DNA of 39,437 bases from a virus, in the IMG/VR virus record IMGVR_UViG_3300038716_000173, positions 1 through 39,437 of that record; one strand, written 5' to 3'. The translations under genes and the position numbers were made by a program. Shown here in pieces: positions 5,969 through 36,542 of this stretch. The notes beneath the pieces were generated by a model. The model was not told the origin of the DNA, ran no database searches, and saw only the letters and a list, made by a program, of their open reading frames with translations. Every line of letters begins with the position of its first letter. The first letter of the stretch is position 1.

Positions 5969-6100
5969 ATGGAGTATTCAACTCTTTATCTAGTCATAAC
6001 AAAATTGCTGTTCCTCTCCCTCGGAGCTGGGACAGCTTTTTTAATTGTTGGACTAATAGCAACTACTCTTCAAGACTCAGAAGAAGATAGTTTGGAATAA
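5969..6100 (+). CDS. Single-pass membrane microprotein
   Basis: A 43-aa frame starting MEYSTLYLVITKLLFLSLGA, eight bases after the preceding stop. Almost the whole protein is one hydrophobic helix (about 5-33), and the tail is very acidic (DSEEDSLE). Function unknown. The last 31 bases overlap the antisense Lys-rich gene. Confidence 0.45.
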   Translation: MEYSTLYLVITKLLFLSLGAGTAFLIVGLIATTLQDSEEDSLE

Positions 6101-6207
6101 GCTTTCTCAGCTTTCTTAATAATTTTTTGCGCCTTTTCCCTAGAGACACACTTCTCTGCTTTGGTCGCTAACTTGACCAATTTTTTATACTGTTTTGATG
6201 AATTCAA
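6070..6207 (-). CDS. Lysine-rich helical microprotein
   Basis: A 45-aa frame starting with TTG at 6207 that overlaps the upstream gene's TGA (a TTGA junction typical of translational coupling). The sequence (NSSKQYKKLVKLATKAEKC, then REKAQKIIKKAEKAYSK) is a strongly basic amphipathic helix with heptad-like spacing. It probably binds nucleic acid or an acidic partner. It is coupled to the NblA-like gene just upstream on the same strand. Confidence 0.5.
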   Translation of the reverse strand: MNSSKQYKKLVKLATKAEKCVSREKAQKIIKKAEKAYSKLSSSES

Positions 6208-6452
6208 CCGTCGTAACTTTTCTTAACTACACCTTGAGTTTCTAATTCTGCTAAACGTTTACAAAGACCACGAATAACTGCTTGACGCTGTATCGCTATA
6301 TGTAACAAATTCATAGCGCCATGCCGTAACTCCTCAATATCCTGTACTTTTTCAATCTGAGTTGAAACAGCTTTAAGAGTAAACTCATCTTCCAAACTAG
6401 GGGTTTGGTCAATGGGTTCAAAGGATAGTTCGACTACTTTAAAAGACGACAT
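6204..6452 (-). CDS. NblA-like phycobilisome degradation adaptor (tentative)
   Basis: An 82-aa protein. Residues 18-68 show the layout of NblA: an opening PSLEDEFTL, followed by TQIEKV and a second helix ending QRQAVIRGLCKRL. Cyanobacterial NblA1-type proteins begin SLEQQFSIR, then TQVQN, and end with a helix carrying VRE...LLK, which I am comparing from memory. NblA dimers attach to phycobilisomes and present them to the Clp protease. The match is in spacing and helix pattern more than identity, so another two-helix microprotein family is possible. The start overlaps the antisense gene at 6412, and the stop is coupled to a Lys-rich gene. Confidence 0.4.
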   Translation of the reverse strand: MSSFKVVELSFEPIDQTPSLEDEFTLKAVSTQIEKVQDIEELRHGAMNLLHIAIQRQAVIRGLCKRLAELETQGVVKKSYDG

Positions 6453-6606
6453 AGATGAAGAAACCTACCACCTAGTCTACCGAATGTTATTGACAGAGAC
6501 CGAACTAAGATTAAAATCGGATCAAAGACTAAAGTATGAATGGCAAAAGCTGCTTGGACAGATGGTAAAAAGCAAAGCGATGCAATACCAAAAAAGACTT
6601 CAATAG
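6412..6606 (+). CDS. Hypothetical small helical protein
   Basis: A 64-aa frame starting MGSKDSSTTLKDDIDEETYH. The segment ETYHLVYRMLLTETELRLKS looks like a genuine amphipathic helix. It overlaps the 5' end of the antisense NblA-like gene by 41 bases and the next plus-strand gene by 67 bases, so the true start may be downstream. No family recognised. Confidence 0.35.
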   Translation: MGSKDSSTTLKDDIDEETYHLVYRMLLTETELRLKSDQRLKYEWQKLLGQMVKSKAMQYQKRLQ

Positions 6607-9778: not shown

Positions 9779-12364
9779 GTGCCTACTGCCTCACAAGAAC
9801 CAAAACGTCCCGATAATCATCTAGAACCAGGTGAAATTAATCTTGACCTAATACCTGCCCACTGGCCTCTAACTCCGCTAAGGGATAAAAGAGCATATAT
9901 TGCTGGTTGGACTTCTCAACCATATAGTATTGAGCGTATTCGCCAAGAATTAGAAGACGGTGTTGCAACTGGCGTAGGACTTATAAGTGGACAGTGGTCT
10001 AATGAAGGTGGACTTGTATGGATAGATATAGATGGTCCTGACGCAATACCAGAGCTTGAAAAATTAGCTGGTGGACCTTTAAATGAAATATTTCCTCGCA
10101 CATTAACTGTTTCCTCTGGTAAAGAAGGGCGTCAAAGAATGCTATTCAGCATTCCCTCTTCAAAACTTTCCTTATTACCGGATAAAGCAACTATTAAAAT
10201 TGGGATTCCCTCTTTTGAAATTCTTTTTCGCTCTCGTCAAGGAGCAATTATGGGAAGCCATCCCGATACAGATGGCTATTACACTACTCCTCATGGTGGC
10301 TTTGAATATGCAAAAAATCCTCCTGAGCTCCCTCAATGGATATATGATGCGATTGCTAAAAAATTCCCAACTAATAAATATCGTAAATCGCCATCCGTTG
10401 GTGTTGTTACTCAACAAGTAAATCTAAGTTATGAAGATGGTTCAGAGTATCAAAAAGAAGATCTATTAAATGAAGCCAAACTTTACTTAGATCACCTTAA
10501 CCCAGAACGTGCAATTGATTATGAAGAATGGATAATTATTGGCTGTGCGTTGCATCAAATTGATGAAACTCTTTTACAAGACTGGGTTGACTGGTCTTCA
10601 GAAGCTCCTAATTTTGAAGTTGGTGTTTGTGAAAAGAAATGGAATACATTTGAACGCATACCTGGAGGACCAGCTCCAGAAGGTGGGGCAGGTCTTCACA
10701 CACTTAGAGCAAAAGCAAAAGAGGATGGTTTTGTAGAATTTGGTGGCTTTGTAGTTGAGTCTTCTCCAGAAGTCTTAGCTCAAAGAGCAAAGGCTTTATT
10801 TAAAGGAGAAGGAGAAACAAAAAAAGGAGGTATAGCCAATTTGAATACGGCCTTAAAAGAGATAATTGGTATTCCTTCAAAAGAAGAAAAAGAAAAAGTC
10901 GAACAATCACTTAAAGGCAAAAGACCGAAAACTCCACCAGCATCAGAGCTCGCTGATTTCGTCACAGGGATGGTGATTGAATGTGGATGGAGATATGATC
11001 CTAAGTTTGATACCTTTATGTTTTATCAAAAAAATAAAGGAACTTGGAGACGAGAAGAATATCGCCATGAATACAAACACTTCGTACAAGATCTCTTTTT
11101 AAGGGAAAATATTCCTACACCAGGAGGTTTTACTTCACATCTACTTAGTGATGTCGTCAACTTAACTCAGGCTTATATTACCCACACGTACTGGGATGAT
11201 GACGATGATCGCCTAGCTTTTAAAAATGGAGTGCTTGAAATAAGTACTGGAGAATTTCTTGATCATAATCCCGAACATTATCTAACATGGGGTCTAGATT
11301 TTGACTATGAACCTAAAGCAAGTCCAGGTCCTATCATCGACTGGTTGAAGCGTACACAGTATGGAGATGAGGAAAGGGTACAAGTCCTACGAGCTTGGCT
11401 TAAAGCTTGCCTGATCGGTCAGGGACATGAACTACAACGATTTTTAGAAGTCATTGGACCAGGTGGTAGAGGTAAGTCAACTTTCGCAAATCTATGTTGT
11501 GCTTTAGTAGGACATGGTAACTACGCCAGTACAACCTTAAACCAACTAGAACAAAGTCGATTTGAAGTTGCCTCTATTAAAGGTAAGAGACTTACTTTAA
11601 TTAATGACTCAGAACGTTATGGTGGATCAGCCCAAATCTTTAAAGCACTAACTGGAGGAGATAACCTCAGATTTGAAGAGAAAAATAAAAATGTTGGGGA
11701 ACCTTTCGTCTATACAGGCATGGTCATGGTCTGTGCAAATGAACCAATTCAAACAACAGATAACACTTCTGGACTAACAAGAAGACGTTTAACCATTGAA
11801 TTTAATCGCTCATTATGGGATAAAAATTCTGAAGCAAAAGAAATGATAAAAGTCGAAGGCGGAGTAGTAAAGGGCTTATGGAAGAACTTTTTACCTGGCT
11901 TAGTTAACTGGGTATTAAGTATGAAAACCGAAGAAATGCGTGAATATCTACTAGATACCTATGAAAAAGTCCACTCATTAAAAAGAGTACGTAATGAAAT
12001 TCTACTTAATAGTAATAACCTAGTTGAATGGCTACAATCGGAAATAATTCATCAACCAAATATTGTTTCTTCTGTAGGTAAGAAAATTCCAGCTGCTAAA
12101 GATGCTAAAGAAAGATACTGCAATAGTAATTTTCACCTATATGCCAGCTACTGCTCCTATTGTGAGGATACAGGCTCAAAACCAGTAGGTCAGAAACGCT
12201 TTATTGCTCTCCTTCTTGATTGCTGTAAGAACCAATTAGATCTAAAAAATGTAAGTCACTTTACTAAGCAAGGACGACCATTTATCAAGGGTTTAGCCGT
12301 TAGAAAGTCTGATCAAAAACACGAAGCATCTCCAACCATACTGCCAGAAAATAAATTGGCATAG
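9779..12364 (+). CDS. Primase-polymerase (AEP) / PriCT-2 / SF3 helicase fusion
   Basis: An 861-aa replication protein that should prime and unwind DNA. The N-terminal Prim-Pol domain (about 20-195) has the GVGLISG strand, WIDIDG with metal ligands D83 and D85, and FEILFRSRQGAIMGSH. A PriCT-2-like domain follows (about 235-325: YEEWIIIGCALHQID, WVDWSSEA). The D5/P4-type SF3 helicase has Walker A GPGGRGKST (K566), Walker B around RLTLINDSE (D610) and the motif C/arginine region MVMVCANEP then GLTRRRLTIEF. The start is a GTG; no better start lies between the palindrome and this codon. Pairing this enzyme with a T7 gp5-like polymerase is unlike T7, which uses a TOPRIM/DnaB-type protein. Confidence 0.9.
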   Translation: MPTASQEPKRPDNHLEPGEINLDLIPAHWPLTPLRDKRAYIAGWTSQPYSIERIRQELEDGVATGVGLISGQWSNEGGLVWIDIDGPDAIPELEKLAGGPLNEIFPRTLTVSSGKEGRQRMLFSIPSSKLSLLPDKATIKIGIPSFEILFRSRQGAIMGSHPDTDGYYTTPHGGFEYAKNPPELPQWIYDAIAKKFPTNKYRKSPSVGVVTQQVNLSYEDGSEYQKEDLLNEAKLYLDHLNPERAIDYEEWIIIGCALHQIDETLLQDWVDWSSEAPNFEVGVCEKKWNTFERIPGGPAPEGGAGLHTLRAKAKEDGFVEFGGFVVESSPEVLAQRAKALFKGEGETKKGGIANLNTALKEIIGIPSKEEKEKVEQSLKGKRPKTPPASELADFVTGMVIECGWRYDPKFDTFMFYQKNKGTWRREEYRHEYKHFVQDLFLRENIPTPGGFTSHLLSDVVNLTQAYITHTYWDDDDDRLAFKNGVLEISTGEFLDHNPEHYLTWGLDFDYEPKASPGPIIDWLKRTQYGDEERVQVLRAWLKACLIGQGHELQRFLEVIGPGGRGKSTFANLCCALVGHGNYASTTLNQLEQSRFEVASIKGKRLTLINDSERYGGSAQIFKALTGGDNLRFEEKNKNVGEPFVYTGMVMVCANEPIQTTDNTSGLTRRRLTIEFNRSLWDKNSEAKEMIKVEGGVVKGLWKNFLPGLVNWVLSMKTEEMREYLLDTYEKVHSLKRVRNEILLNSNNLVEWLQSEIIHQPNIVSSVGKKIPAAKDAKERYCNSNFHLYASYCSYCEDTGSKPVGQKRFIALLLDCCKNQLDLKNVSHFTKQGRPFIKGLAVRKSDQKHEASPTILPENKLA

Positions 12365-13249: not shown

Positions 13250-13357
13250 ATGACTCCTGAAGCAGAAAAGTTCAATGGCTGGGCAGCAATGCTCGGTGTC
13301 GTAGCAGCACTAGGTGCATATGCTACAACTGGTCAAATTATTCCTGGAATCTTTTAA
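13250..13357 (+). CDS. hli: High-light-inducible protein 1 (short form)
   Basis: A 35-aa HLIP, starting MTPEAEKFNGWAAMLG and ending TTGQIIPGIF. It carries the chlorophyll-binding helix pattern ExxNxxxAM; an Ala-Trp pair replaces the Arg of ExxNxR, as is usual for the short phage form. HLIPs are single-helix thylakoid proteins that protect photosystems and pigments during stress; cyanophages carry them to sustain photosynthesis during infection. It is first of three tandem hli genes and ends one base before the next start. Confidence 0.85.
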   Translation: MTPEAEKFNGWAAMLGVVAALGAYATTGQIIPGIF

Positions 13358-13358
13358 A

Positions 13359-13553
13359 ATGGATTCTCATATAACAACTGAATACGGTAAACAAAATATC
13401 TTCGCAAAAGAAGTTCAACCTAGAATCAGCGAAGAATACAAAGGATACATTGAAGAAGCTGAACTAGCTAACTCTCGGTGGGCCATGATTGGATTTGTTG
13501 CTTTACTAGGAGCATATCTAACAACTGGTCAAGTTATCCCTGGTATTTTCTAA
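13359..13553 (+). CDS. hli: High-light-inducible protein 2 (long form)
   Basis: A 64-aa HLIP, starting MDSHITTEYGKQNIFAKEVQ with a hydrophilic N-terminal extension. It continues into the canonical chlorophyll-binding motif EAELANSRWAMIGF (E35, N38, R40) and ends TTGQVIPGIF, the same ending as HLIP 1. The start at 13359 is one base after the previous stop and fits HLIP length; a further upstream frame lies inside HLIP 1. It should bind chlorophyll as a homo- or heterodimer in thylakoid membranes. Confidence 0.9.
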   Translation: MDSHITTEYGKQNIFAKEVQPRISEEYKGYIEEAELANSRWAMIGFVALLGAYLTTGQVIPGIF

Positions 13554-25074: not shown

Positions 25075-25430
25075 TAGACAATTACACCCCAGAACTACAA
25101 CTAATAGACGCTCTAGACATGCTTAAACACTATGAGCCTAAGGCGGCGGAGATCCTAGACCAGTGGGCTTCTGAGTCCAATAACGAAAAAACTGACGAAG
25201 AACTTCTCCAGACGGGTCCCACTCCGCTAACTTTTTCTCAAGATATTCAATTGCTTTCAGCTGATTGGGAACCCCAGTATAAGTTTCAGGGAGATTCAAT
25301 AAACATCTCTTTACCCGACAACGATGAGGAACTAACGTGGGAATCTCTTTATCCGCAGCATAGTAAGTATCCAATTCAACACGACGTCTATCTCTCATTA
25401 GATCACCCCCAGACAACCAAATTTGATTGA
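25056..25430 (+). CDS. Hypothetical protein overlapping the endolysin antisense
   Basis: A 124-aa acidic protein (MQYETLIDNYTPELQLIDAL). The first 27 residues and start overlap with the DUF1599-like gene look natural. However, 293 of its 375 bases are antisense to the C-terminal part of the endolysin gene. It is open to the end, with acidic, Trp-containing stretches. Either both genes are real or the plus-strand one is shorter or spurious. Confidence 0.4.
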   Translation: MQYETLIDNYTPELQLIDALDMLKHYEPKAAEILDQWASESNNEKTDEELLQTGPTPLTFSQDIQLLSADWEPQYKFQGDSINISLPDNDEELTWESLYPQHSKYPIQHDVYLSLDHPQTTKFD

Positions 25431-25890
25431 TATAAGGACTCCATTCTCGAATAATTTTGGTTTTACCAGCAGAAGAGTTTATTAACTCTAATAAGCGACA
25501 TGTTTTAAATGAAGATATCCCAAGACTATGAGCAAAACTCAGTAGAGCTGCCTTTCTATTAGTATTTAAAGGAACTATTACATAACTAGCTACTAAATCC
25601 GAAAACTCTTTTAAATCCTCCTCTAATTGACTATCAATTTCCTCTTCAGTGGCCTTATCTGTAGACGCTAACCATCTCTTCCCTAATTTCTTACTGCCAT
25701 ACCCTATACGCCATATACTTTCATCATATTCTCTATAAGAAGCATAACGCCCCATACCAATATAGGTACGAGGCAATGAATGAGTCTTTATTAAATTTAT
25801 TCCTTTTCTAGTTAAAAAAGGATGTTCCTTCCACCTAGTTCGTAATTTCTGTTTCTTATGGGACGACAACGCTACCGCTGTAACTAACAC
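25138..25890 (-). CDS. GH24-like endolysin (phage lysozyme fold)
   Basis: A 250-aa protein that should cleave host peptidoglycan. The IWRIGYGS core (residues 59-66), the conserved helix block LNTNRKAALLSFAHSLG and the end DLMRDRRRVELDTY match phage GH24 lysozymes. The usual catalytic Glu-Asp-Thr triad is not obvious: the segment before IGYG reads YREYDESIWR where family members often read WTIGYG. C-terminal to the domain is a 65-residue extension (EYLEKKLAEWDPSGEVLRQF). The start is GTG 25890 or TTG 25869 and overlaps the upstream gene. Confidence 0.7.
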   Translation of the reverse strand: MLVTAVALSSHKKQKLRTRWKEHPFLTRKGINLIKTHSLPRTYIGMGRYASYREYDESIWRIGYGSKKLGKRWLASTDKATEEEIDSQLEEDLKEFSDLVASYVIVPLNTNRKAALLSFAHSLGISSFKTCRLLELINSSAGKTKIIREWSPYINQIWLSGGDLMRDRRRVELDTYYAADKEIPTLVPHRCRVKRCLLNLPETYTGVPNQLKAIEYLEKKLAEWDPSGEVLRQFFRYWTQKPTGLGSPPP

Positions 25891-26244: not shown

Positions 26245-26460
26245 TTAAGAGATCTGTCCTACAGTGGAGATGTTGAATTGAATATCGGCATCAATGCCGT
26301 GGTCCTTCATAATATTGAAAAACATTTGCTTATCCAAAGCTTTTTGATGAAGCATCTCAATAAAGGCATCTTCTAAATCCGAACGATCAAGATTTTGAAT
26401 CGCAAGGGAAGCTGCATGAATTGAAAATTCGACATCAACCGGAAGCTCTAATGCATCCAT
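26245..26460 (-). CDS. NblA-like phycobilisome degradation adaptor
   Basis: A 71-aa protein. The region EFSI (11-14), then DRSDLEDAFIEMLHQK (25-40) and FFNIMKDHG (47-55) closely follows the helix-turn-helix hairpin of cyanobacterial NblA. I recall SREDLEDLFIEVVRQK in the Synechococcus PCC 7942 protein, a striking residue-level match. NblA docks on phycobilisome rods and delivers them to ClpC/ClpP proteolysis, freeing amino acids. A phage copy would be an auxiliary metabolic gene. It sits between a small membrane protein and a virion-like gene, next to the endolysin. The tail IDADIQFNIST is extra. Confidence 0.6.
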   Translation of the reverse strand: MDALELPVDVEFSIHAASLAIQNLDRSDLEDAFIEMLHQKALDKQMFFNIMKDHGIDADIQFNISTVGQIS

Positions 26461-32771: not shown

Positions 32772-35700
32772 CTACCCTGCTTCGAGGGCAGCGACTTTTG
32801 CAGATAGTTCTTTGACTGCGTTTATTAAATACCAAGTCAAATTATCAGAGTTAACTGTTTTAACTCCCGTTGATTGAGTTTTTACGCACTCTGGTAATAT
32901 TTTTTCTAATTCTTGTGCAATAACTCCTAATTGTTGACCTTCTTTTTCAACTACTGCTGATTTAGGATTATCAAAATCAATAATTTCATCTTCAGTTCTA
33001 TACTCAAAATTACGAATTTGTATTTGATTAAGAATATCTAAACCAGTATTATTATCTACAATATTCTTTTTAACTCTTTCATCAGAAGTAGTTGACCAAG
33101 TTGTAGTATTTCCTGAATGATAAACTCCATTACCAACATTACCAACCATTAAAGTACTATCACCTTTTCCACCAGCGTTATATCCTATAGCTATTGAATA
33201 TTGATCATCAGCAGCATTTGTATTAGCATAAGCACCAATCATGACATTCCTTATGCCAGTGGTTATAGGAGCGTTGTAATCACCTGCTCTATAACCAACA
33301 CAAGTATTGTATTCTCCTGTTGTGATAGCTTTTCCTGCAAGTTTACCAAGGCCAGAATTATAAATACCTGTTGTTAAATCATATAAAGCATCATGACCAA
33401 TACCAGTATTACCTACTCCACCAGTAGACAAAACCAGTGAATTTTGACCAACAGCAACGTTACCAGTACCTGTTACATGAGAATATAAAGCACCAGATCC
33501 ACAAGCAGTGTTTTCACTGGCAGTTGTATTTGCTTCTAAAGCTCTATGTCCGACAGCTGTATTATAGCTACCTTCTGTGTTTGCTTCTAACGCTTCATAG
33601 CCAACACCAACGTTGTACTGTCCAGTTGTAGTTGAATATGCAGACTGGAAACCAAGACTAGTATTACCAGTACCTGTTGAAGTACTAGTCTGGGAGAAAT
33701 ATCCAATAGCTGTATTACCATCAGCCTCAGTTTGAGCATCTAAGCAATAAGCACCCATAGCAACGTTATATTGTCCTGTCGTGTTATTCCCTAAAGCGTT
33801 ATAACCAACGGCTACATTCCTAATTCCTGTTGTGTTGTTGTTTAAGGCAAACGCACCAAAGGCAGTACCTCTATCACCTGTAGTGTTGTCCTGTAAAGCT
33901 CTATAGCCAGTAGCAGTATTATGTTCACCAGATGTATTTTGCTTTATTGCCTCCCAACCAATAGCAGTGTTGTAATTTGCAGTTGTAGGCTTTTCTAAAG
34001 CACTAACACCTATAGCGACGTTGTGCGAGCCTGTAGTGTTATCTGTTAAAGCCGACACACCGACAGCAACGTTTTGTGTGCCTGTAGTGTTATCCATTAA
34101 GGCGTTTACACCAATAGCCGTATTACTTCCACCTGTAGTGGTTGCATACAGGGTTTGAGCACCTAAACCAGTATTTAAGTCGCCTGTCGTAATTACTCGA
34201 CCAGCCGAAAAACCTAAAGCAGTATTGTAACTAGCAGTTGTATTTGCACCTAAAGTATTTTGTCCAATAGCGACGTTATAAGATCCTGTTGTGTTTGCAT
34301 CTAATGCATATGAACCTACAGCAGTATTTACAGCACCAGTTGTATTTGCTTTTAAAGATTGATAACCAACTGCCGTATTATTATCGGCTGTTGTATTTGC
34401 TTGTAAAGCATACATGCCTACAGCAGTATTATAATCTCCTGTAGTATTGTATTGCAGACCATGAGTACCTACAGCAGTATTAAAACCTCCAGTTGTATTT
34501 TCAGATAAAGCTGTGTTACCTACTGCAGTGTTGTAATGACCAGTAGTATTTGCATCTAAGGCATAAGTTCCAACAGCAGTAAGAGTATTACCTGTTGTGT
34601 TATTAGTTAATGCATCAGATCCAACTGCAAGGTTTCCTGCTGCTGTATTTGATTGTAGTGCGTTATTACCAATCGCAACACTTTGATTACTTGTTGTGTT
34701 TGTTTTTAATGCGTTGTATCCAATTCCAATATTGGAAGATCCAGTTGTATTTGCTGTTAAAGATCTAGAACCAAGAGAAGTATTATAGTTACCTGTTGTA
34801 GTTGCATCTAAAGCAGTATAACCAATACCAGTATTTTCAGCTCCTGTAGTATTCGCATATAAAGCATTCTGACCTACACCAGTAAGCTTTGCTCCTGTTG
34901 TATTGTTAGCACAAGCATAATCACCAAAAGCAGTGTTTGTCTCGGCTGTAGTATTTGCATTTAAAGCAAAATTACCAAAAGCACAGTTATAGTTACCTGT
35001 TGTATTTGAAGCTAAAGCTCTATCTCCTAATGCATTATTTCTTGTTCCTGTTGTATTTGTAGTTAACGATTGGAATCCAACAGCAGTGTTATTATCGGCT
35101 GTTGTATTAGCCTCTAACGCCTCTCCTCCAACAGCCGTGTTTTTCTCTCCTGTTGTATTAATGATTAAAGCACGATGACCTAATCCTGTATTTTTTGCTC
35201 CTGTTGTGTTATTAGCTAAAGCACTATATCCAACAGCAACATTCTCATTCGCTGTCGTATTATCTTCTAGAGAATTTTGTCCAACAGCAACGTTATAACT
35301 ACCTGTAGTAGTTAATCTTAAAGCATCAGCACCTACGCCAGTATTACCATCTCCTGTAGTTATTGTTGTTCCTGCTTCGTAACCAATAAGAGTATTATTT
35401 TCAGCATTGGTTCCATCAAAACTATCCCCTGCAGCTGCACCAACTCTGGTATTATTTTGAGCATCAGTGGCGTCAATACCTCCCTCTGCAACTAGTATTC
35501 CAGTAACAGTCGCTCCCGTATTAGATGTCTCAAACCTTGTTACATTATCATATTTAAGAAAACAACCACCATCAGGAACAAATACAGCCATTTCCTCACC
35601 ACCCGTCTTTCTTAGATAGGTGTTGTAAGTCGTATCTATAAATAAATGACCAACAGCATTAGTTATATAAGAATTGGAACCGTCATGATATATGGAACAA

Positions 35701-36542
35701 TCTGATGAAGTTCCAAATGCAGCCTTAGCATTATCCGCAAAAATCAAATCATCTACTGACTTATCCCAAGTAACACTTGCAGATGCACCAGTAAACGTTA
35801 CATCTCCGTCGTGTGTAGCACCATCGTCTACATGGATTCCAATGGTGTTTGTTCCTGTATTGGTTGTCGAAAATTTATGTGCTGAGTCATAATACAAATT
35901 AGTAGCACCATCTATGTTAAATACGGCTACATTATCCGAATCATCATGATTCCTTATACGGACAGAGCTACTAGCTGGCGCAATCATCTTTAATTGACCA
36001 TTAACACTTTTTATCAACGAGTTGGAAGTATCATGATATACCTCTAGGTCCGACGAAGATCCAACTAATAATTTTTTATTATCAGGTAATTTAAATCCAT
36101 TACCGTCAAGAGTGAAAATTTGAACTCCATCTGAAGTGAAACCCATCGTTCCACCAGTTACTGAGTACAATCCTGTATCGTTGTCATTTCCAAAGGTAAT
36201 ACTTGGGGCGGTAGCACTACCTGCAGGGAACTCAGTACCTACTGTGACGTAGTCTGCACCAGATAAAATAACGCCGAAGAAGGCATGTCCATTAGCTGGA
36301 GCTGAACTAAATACAATATTATTTCCTGATATTTTGAAACCTGCACTACCCGTCGGATCAGGTTCTTGAATGACTCCATTAACTGAGATATAAATCTGCT
36401 GAGTGTTAATTGGAAAAGGTACTGGAGCTGATCCTCCAACTAGTAATGCAAACGAAGTTGTGCTCCCATTAAAACTAGAACTTATATCGTCAATAATTTT
36501 GTTGCCTGACTCCGCAACTTGCAGATCATTCCCAATATACAT
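32772..36542 (-). CDS. Tail fibre C with 17-residue repeats and S74 chaperone
   Basis: A 1256-aa fibre. The N-terminal domain (about 1-120: MYIGNDLQVAESGNKIIDDI, FNGSTTSFAL, ISVNGVIQEP) is homologous to fibre A's and should bind the tail. A shaft follows with modules shared with fibre B (WDKSVDDLIFADNAKAAFG, YHDGSNSY). Then come about 44 repeats of 17 residues (NTAVGxxALxxNTTGxx), probably a trimeric left-handed solenoid like YadA heads. The C-terminal 105 residues are an S74 intramolecular chaperone: TSDERVKKNI with the self-cleavage Ser and Lys, LGVIAQELEKILPE and a final coiled coil. After folding it should cleave itself off. Confidence 0.92.
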   Translation of the reverse strand: MYIGNDLQVAESGNKIIDDISSSFNGSTTSFALLVGGSAPVPFPINTQQIYISVNGVIQEPDPTGSAGFKISGNNIVFSSAPANGHAFFGVILSGADYVTVGTEFPAGSATAPSITFGNDNDTGLYSVTGGTMGFTSDGVQIFTLDGNGFKLPDNKKLLVGSSSDLEVYHDTSNSLIKSVNGQLKMIAPASSSVRIRNHDDSDNVAVFNIDGATNLYYDSAHKFSTTNTGTNTIGIHVDDGATHDGDVTFTGASASVTWDKSVDDLIFADNAKAAFGTSSDCSIYHDGSNSYITNAVGHLFIDTTYNTYLRKTGGEEMAVFVPDGGCFLKYDNVTRFETSNTGATVTGILVAEGGIDATDAQNNTRVGAAAGDSFDGTNAENNTLIGYEAGTTITTGDGNTGVGADALRLTTTGSYNVAVGQNSLEDNTTANENVAVGYSALANNTTGAKNTGLGHRALIINTTGEKNTAVGGEALEANTTADNNTAVGFQSLTTNTTGTRNNALGDRALASNTTGNYNCAFGNFALNANTTAETNTAFGDYACANNTTGAKLTGVGQNALYANTTGAENTGIGYTALDATTTGNYNTSLGSRSLTANTTGSSNIGIGYNALKTNTTSNQSVAIGNNALQSNTAAGNLAVGSDALTNNTTGNTLTAVGTYALDANTTGHYNTAVGNTALSENTTGGFNTAVGTHGLQYNTTGDYNTAVGMYALQANTTADNNTAVGYQSLKANTTGAVNTAVGSYALDANTTGSYNVAIGQNTLGANTTASYNTALGFSAGRVITTGDLNTGLGAQTLYATTTGGSNTAIGVNALMDNTTGTQNVAVGVSALTDNTTGSHNVAIGVSALEKPTTANYNTAIGWEAIKQNTSGEHNTATGYRALQDNTTGDRGTAFGAFALNNNTTGIRNVAVGYNALGNNTTGQYNVAMGAYCLDAQTEADGNTAIGYFSQTSTSTGTGNTSLGFQSAYSTTTGQYNVGVGYEALEANTEGSYNTAVGHRALEANTTASENTACGSGALYSHVTGTGNVAVGQNSLVLSTGGVGNTGIGHDALYDLTTGIYNSGLGKLAGKAITTGEYNTCVGYRAGDYNAPITTGIRNVMIGAYANTNAADDQYSIAIGYNAGGKGDSTLMVGNVGNGVYHSGNTTTWSTTSDERVKKNIVDNNTGLDILNQIQIRNFEYRTEDEIIDFDNPKSAVVEKEGQQLGVIAQELEKILPECVKTQSTGVKTVNSDNLTWYLINAVKELSAKVAALEAG
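33165..35400 (-). repeat. About 44 tandem 51-base repeats in fibre C
   Basis: The protein unit is N(T/V)(A/G)(V/I/L)G-x-x-(A/S)L-x-x-NTTG-x-x, 17 residues, repeated without long interruption; only the unit near the end (NTCVGYRAG) is longer. DNA copies are diverged enough that no long identical repeats dominate. Confidence 0.85.

Follow-up and report, generated by a model that had tools for sequence, protein, structure and literature searches.

A second, divergent NblA-like gene in cyanophages of the S-EIV1 lineage

The analysis of a viral DNA stretch of 39,437 nucleotides (IMG/VR record IMGVR_UViG_3300038716_000173; hereafter, the window) identifies two NblA-like genes, named here by their first positions, 6204 and 26245 (Table 1). 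By profile and alignment evidence, the 6204 protein is a remote member of the NblA superfamily, while the 26245 gene is of the better-known viral NblA type. Comparison of related contigs indicates that the pair is a fixed feature of the S-EIV1 phage lineage. The interpretation given in the preliminary description of this DNA, a second and divergent NblA in the same phage, holds and even understates the case, as both branches are conserved throughout the lineage, a cultured representative included; this co-conservation is new and goes beyond what had been claimed. On the same sequence evidence, we consider it rather probable that the product of the 6204 gene is a second proteolysis adaptor of the NblA type, which would direct the light-harvesting antenna to the Clp protease.

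Table 1. Features of the window discussed in the text
Feature	Position	Strand	Basis
Divergent NblA-like gene, 82 aa	6204..6452	-	ATG start; ORF, purifying selection, profile matches to NblA structures, hhalign, model
Lysine-rich ORF, 45 aa, with a 4-base overlap between its TTG start and the end of the 6204 gene	6070..6207	-	conserved in 11/16 loci
TAGACT, -10-like box, ~21 nt before the ATG of the 6204 gene	6474..6479	-	consensus resemblance only
Divergent sigma-70-like promoter, TTGACA-16-TAAAAT, 11/12 matches, predicted to serve the replication genes on its right	6490..6517	+	consensus
Hairpin resembling an intrinsic terminator, predicted to stop plus-strand transcription ahead of the 6204 unit	6023..6039	+	consensus match only
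Second terminator-like hairpin	6161..6180	+	consensus match only
High-light-inducible protein (hli), the window phage's third gene related to photosynthesis	13314..13553	+	phrog_178, E 4e-24
Endolysin, adjoining the 26245 gene	25138..25890	-	phrog_7, E 1.4e-13
First NblA-like gene, 71 aa, canonical/cyanopodovirus branch, adjoining the endolysin	26245..26460	-	profile matches

The motifs PSLEDEFTL, TQIEKV and QRQAVIRGLCKRL, on which the preliminary description had relied, are all present in the 6204 ORF at exactly the coordinates of Table 1. The core of the protein spans residues 18–67, with an extension of about 17 residues at the N-terminus. A protein with 96% identity is found in three IMG/VR phages; in the comparison with a near relative (L001), 12 codons differ synonymously and 3 nonsynonymously, and third codon positions hold 12 of the 16 DNA differences. 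Given these relatives and the mostly synonymous, third-position changes, the ORF is a real translated gene, and the pattern of substitutions indicates purifying selection. The 64-aa ORF at 6412–6606 (+), overlapping the start of the 6204 gene, was discarded, having no counterpart among the ORFs of L001.

The 6204 gene lies antisense within the replication module (DNA polymerase, 770–2602; primase, 9779–12364). The lysine-rich ORF overlapping its end is probably a translationally coupled partner; third positions account for 15/20 changes in this ORF, and no counterpart was found in S-EIV1. An equivalent of the -10-like box (TAGACT, TAGAAT, or TAAAAT) precedes the ATG in all loci compared, S-EIV1 included, and the divergent TTGACA promoter is conserved as well, its TGTCAA complement recurring upstream in most loci. 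Since the gene is antisense to the replication module and has its own conserved promoter-like box, its timing cannot be read from position alone.

BLAST of the single 6204 protein against phages gives only E values of 4 or worse; profiles are needed to see the signal. The A6 profile, comprising 15 sequences of the phage family of the 6204 type, was compared with 177,635 PDB sequences, and its best two matches are the NblA structures 2q8v (E 4.8e-4) and 2qdo (E 0.019). With the broader A5 profile, 1ojh, 2q8v, and 2qdo take ranks 1, 2, and 3 in the same set, while the less diverse A4 profile has one NblA in the top ten, along with a few unrelated chains at E 0.03–1. In the 229-kb genome of S-SCSM1, not used in building A6, the sole match of A6 is ORF237, annotated nblA (E 1e-5). 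The search of genome contigs with the A1 profile gave no match, and NCBIfam matches were dismissed as noise. The alignment of the pooled family with NblA by hhalign has probability 94, E 1.7e-7, and score 41.7, compared to a maximum of 16.5 for the column-shuffled controls and a score of 10.4 for the reversed one; the 6204 protein with two near copies alone gives probability 78 and E 1.7e-5. Even the single 6204 sequence aligns to NblA 2q8v with a score of 86, reached by none of 1000 shuffled sequences (mean 25.6, sd 7.0). Pfam NblA (PF04485) covers 46 of its 50 positions in the 6204 protein, at 12.9 bits (E 0.16), that is, below the gathering cut-off of 25 bits, and the protein should not be given this label automatically.

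The relatives collected comprise the MED4-117 family, a picocyanobacterial host family, reached via weak Pfam NblA matches, and S-SCSM1 ORF237. The MED4-117 siphophage protein family phrog_30071 matches the 6204 protein with E 0.0013 over a part of its length (residues 15–54). Iterated profile searches seeded with the picocyanobacterial, S-SCSM1, or 6204 sequences gather one overlapping set, in which the 6204 protein stands together with these families and canonical NblA; conversely, in the iterated search from canonical NblA, the 6204 protein is the first match beyond the included members (E 0.0067, 17,857 ORFs). The profile searches place the protein in the NblA superfamily and not in an unrelated family, which supports the proposal of a second, divergent NblA-like protein in one phage.

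The AlphaFold2 model of the 6204 protein (mean pLDDT 75) has a short helix (residues 20–35), a tight turn, and a long helix (39–74), and this predicted arrangement is the NblA layout, as had been proposed from the motifs. No NblA was found among the matches of the model in Foldseek (PDB) or VIA-align, such searches having low power for a two-helix protein; Foldseek likewise returned no NblA match for the model of the 26245 protein, the better NblA homologue. Towards the end of the long helix lies RQAVIRGLCKRL, one of the best-conserved stretches of the family in the A6 alignment, and AVIRGLCKRLA of the 6204 protein aligns with NVIRSLVKRAA of NblA 2q8v. Leu-51 and Lys-53 of Anabaena NblA, which we take to be the antenna-binding residues, are aligned with the invariant L63 and with K65, occupied by Lys or Arg in 15/15 sequences of A6; the S-EIV1 copy retains the Leu and has Gln at the position equivalent to K65.

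Profile searches confirm that the 26245 protein is NblA-like too: the A3 profile of this type matches NblA structures 3cs5 (E 6e-4) and 1ojh (E 0.04), jackhmmer started from canonical NblA recruits the protein at E 2e-27, and at least 80 relatives of this type are found in IMG/VR. The DUF3231 match of the protein (E 0.008) was considered to be a chance one, overruled by the matches of A3 to NblA structures, and so was the GvpK match of a relative, given the NblA evidence. The low identity between the two proteins, pointed out in the preliminary description, is confirmed by BLASTP, which gives no meaningful match (E 2.4), and by a forced alignment with 23% identity, equalled by 97 of 1000 shuffles. 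The tree, built from 77 columns only, separates two NblA branches with 95/93 support. The first branch contains canonical NblA, the 26245 and cyanopodovirus types, and 2q8v; the second one contains the 6204 type, the MED4-117 and picocyanobacterial families, and S-SCSM1. Since the tree splits the two copies with this support, they look like separate acquisitions. Recent duplication of the 26245 gene as the source of 6204 is ruled out by the missing similarity and the position in the tree.

The 6204-type profile was further run on 41 phage contigs bearing a 26245-type gene. All 18 contigs that continue for 15 kb or more downstream of the latter carry the 6204 type, on the same strand and 14.9–24.3 kb away; two further contigs carry it if read as circular (distances of 23.3 and 40.2 kb), and the remaining 21 of the 41, lacking the 6204 type, all end within 14 kb, too short to tell. 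The view in the preliminary description that two NblA-like genes 20 kb apart would be unusual needs some qualification, as two copies are the rule in the S-EIV1 lineage. No terminase was seen in the window, and its assignment to this lineage is made via relatives, in one of which (G366) the terminase has 65% identity to that of S-EIV1; the order of DNA polymerase, ssDNA-binding gene, and antisense NblA-like gene is common to the window phage and S-EIV1. In S-EIV1 itself, the 6204-type gene (AHV82171.1; A6 E 1.7e-11) lies next to the polymerase and ssDNA-binding genes in antisense orientation, and the 26245-type gene (AHV82245.1; E 3.7e-19) follows the lysozyme. Both are annotated as hypothetical; the 26245-type protein of S-EIV1 scores 16.3 bits with Pfam NblA, also below the 25-bit cut-off. 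S-EIV1 is a cultured Arctic lake phage with Synechococcus PCCC-A2c as the host, so that a culturable phage–host pair exists.

The photosynthetic genes listed for the S-EIV1 group in a survey of 2017 are hli and ptoX only (PMC5332604), although specialist lists of NblA may include the genes described here. In one ocean survey, the group accounts for 3.3% of the cyanophage content mapped (PMC5332604), and an S-EIV1-like prophage has been reported in S. elongatus UTEX 3055 (PMC9239245). Separately, a relative carrying both NblA types (G366) also has psbA, encoding the photosystem II D1 protein (L286, positions 2–1054). The window also encodes a 1256-aa protein (32772–36542) with dozens of NTAVGYxALxxNTTG repeats and a chaperone-like C-terminus, which is likely to be a tail fibre or an adhesin.

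As an adaptor of ClpC, NblA binds antenna proteins and hands them over to the protease (reviewed in PMC7966870, PMC7760959), the antenna being bound via the C-terminus (PMC7760959). The 6204 protein may, like NblA, dimerise into a helical bundle. A phycobiliprotein or another antenna subunit would be bound by the C-terminal part of the long helix (the R-Q-x-x-I-R-x-L-x-K/R-R-L stretch), a role proposed because RQAVIRGLCKRL aligns with the antenna-contacting C-terminal region of 2q8v, and would be delivered to the host ClpC–ClpP protease. The antenna would thereby be dismantled and amino acids freed during infection, with psbA or hli protecting the reaction centre. The labour is probably split between the two copies, each being an adaptor of its own that differs in target or timing, along the lines of the preliminary description, or both being partners in a heterodimer.

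The latter possibility, that the 6204 and 26245 proteins act not independently but as one heterodimeric adaptor, is suggested by analogy with Synechocystis, where the NblA1/NblA2 heterodimer is essential (Baier 2014, as cited in PMC7966870, PMC6722726), and is consistent with the co-conservation of both types wherever testable (the 18 contigs above) and in S-EIV1. However, the phage genes are 14.9–24.3 kb apart, in different modules, and belong to different tree branches, so that their equal co-expression is not obvious, and S-SCSM1 is reported with one nblA (PMC9602691); we regard such a pairing as doubtful.

The 6204 type might also be an NblA-fold adaptor that acts on something else than the phycobilisome, for instance on a photosystem or some other protein of the host, or an anti-adaptor blocking host NblA/ClpC. 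Phages MED4-117, MED4-184, and P-HS2 infect Prochlorococcus MED4, which has no phycobilisomes, and the membership of their proteins in the same branch is the main ground for considering another target for this branch. The multi-copy host branch, with up to 4 matches per genome, suggests diversified targets, and the N-terminal extension is conserved in the phage family. At the same time, VIRxLxKR, the stretch best matching NblA, is among the most conserved ones in the phage family, which favours NblA-like binding; we consider this explanation unlikely. Finally, it is highly improbable that the 6204 protein is a small two-helix protein unrelated to NblA, with convergent amphipathic helices: weak profile matches come easily to short helical proteins, the Pfam score is under the cut-off, and A4 attracts unrelated PDB chains, but the reversed and column-shuffled hhalign controls fail, solved NblA proteins come first in PDB with A5 and A6 and in the top ten with A4, and A6 picks the annotated nblA alone from a genome outside its build set.

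Compared to these explanations, a second NblA-type adaptor aimed at the antenna remains the preferred reading. Two unrelated-looking NblA proteins at fixed positions throughout the lineage suggest that one adaptor is not enough. More speculatively, the S-EIV1 lineage could possess a two-component antenna-dismantling device, consisting of two NblA adaptors of separate origin that act either as an obligate heterodimer or on two different complexes, the 6204 type having a non-phycobilisome target; we offer this as a tentative possibility. The harm done by phage NblA to ocean photosynthesis is the subject of a paper in Nature (Nadel 2025, as cited in PMC13386980). With the present results, a large unnamed picocyanobacterial family and the MED4-117-type siphophages of phycobilisome-less Prochlorococcus join the NblA superfamily, and in this widened superfamily the question of what else NblA degrades becomes directly testable.

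Among known systems, NblA itself (PF04485; 1ojh, 2q8v, 2qdo, 3cs5) has in common with the 6204 protein the two-helix layout, the SLE-x-x-F opening, and VIRxLxKR at the end of the long helix; the 6204 protein has about 27% identity to 2q8v and differs by a one-residue insertion between the helices and the N-terminal extension. Viral NblA of marine cyanophages (26245 and cyanopodovirus types; Nadel 2019, 2025, through citing papers) are auxiliary genes of cyanophages from the same superfamily, whereas the 6204 type belongs to the other tree branch, has another genome position, and shows no BLAST similarity to them. ORF237 of the T4-like cyanophage S-SCSM1, annotated as NblA, is of the same branch as the 6204 protein (38% identity over 50 aligned residues), but has 54 residues, lacks the C-terminal part, and comes from a different phage family. 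The phrog_30071 proteins (MED4-117, MED4-184, and P-HS2), also of this branch, share the PSLExEF and DI[DE]ELR motifs with the 6204 protein, but come from Prochlorococcus siphophages and have a long basic C-terminal tail; such tailed proteins of the NblA branch occur in these three phages and in many relatives from the environment (L010–L046), even though MED4 has no phycobilisomes.

The multi-copy picocyanobacterial NblA-like family (e.g., L232–L234, L238–L267) is of the same branch and has the same one-residue insertion, but is chromosomal in the host, has several paralogues, and lacks the N-terminal extension. Of the 201 genomes searched in the Prochlorococcus/Synechococcus group, 107 were found to contain it, and L238–L267 appear to be missing from many of the smallest genomes of the group listed; we know of no experimental characterisation of this family. 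A GTDB genome titled "Euryarchaeota archaeon isolate SP67" (G004) includes contigs that bear hli along with three genes of the NblA type (L127–L129, L197–L199); these look like mis-binned cyanophage contigs. Synechocystis, like the window phage, has two NblA proteins per genome, forming, according to the literature, a functional heterodimer; in the window phage, the two proteins belong to two distant branches, and their genes are carried by a phage, 20 kb apart.
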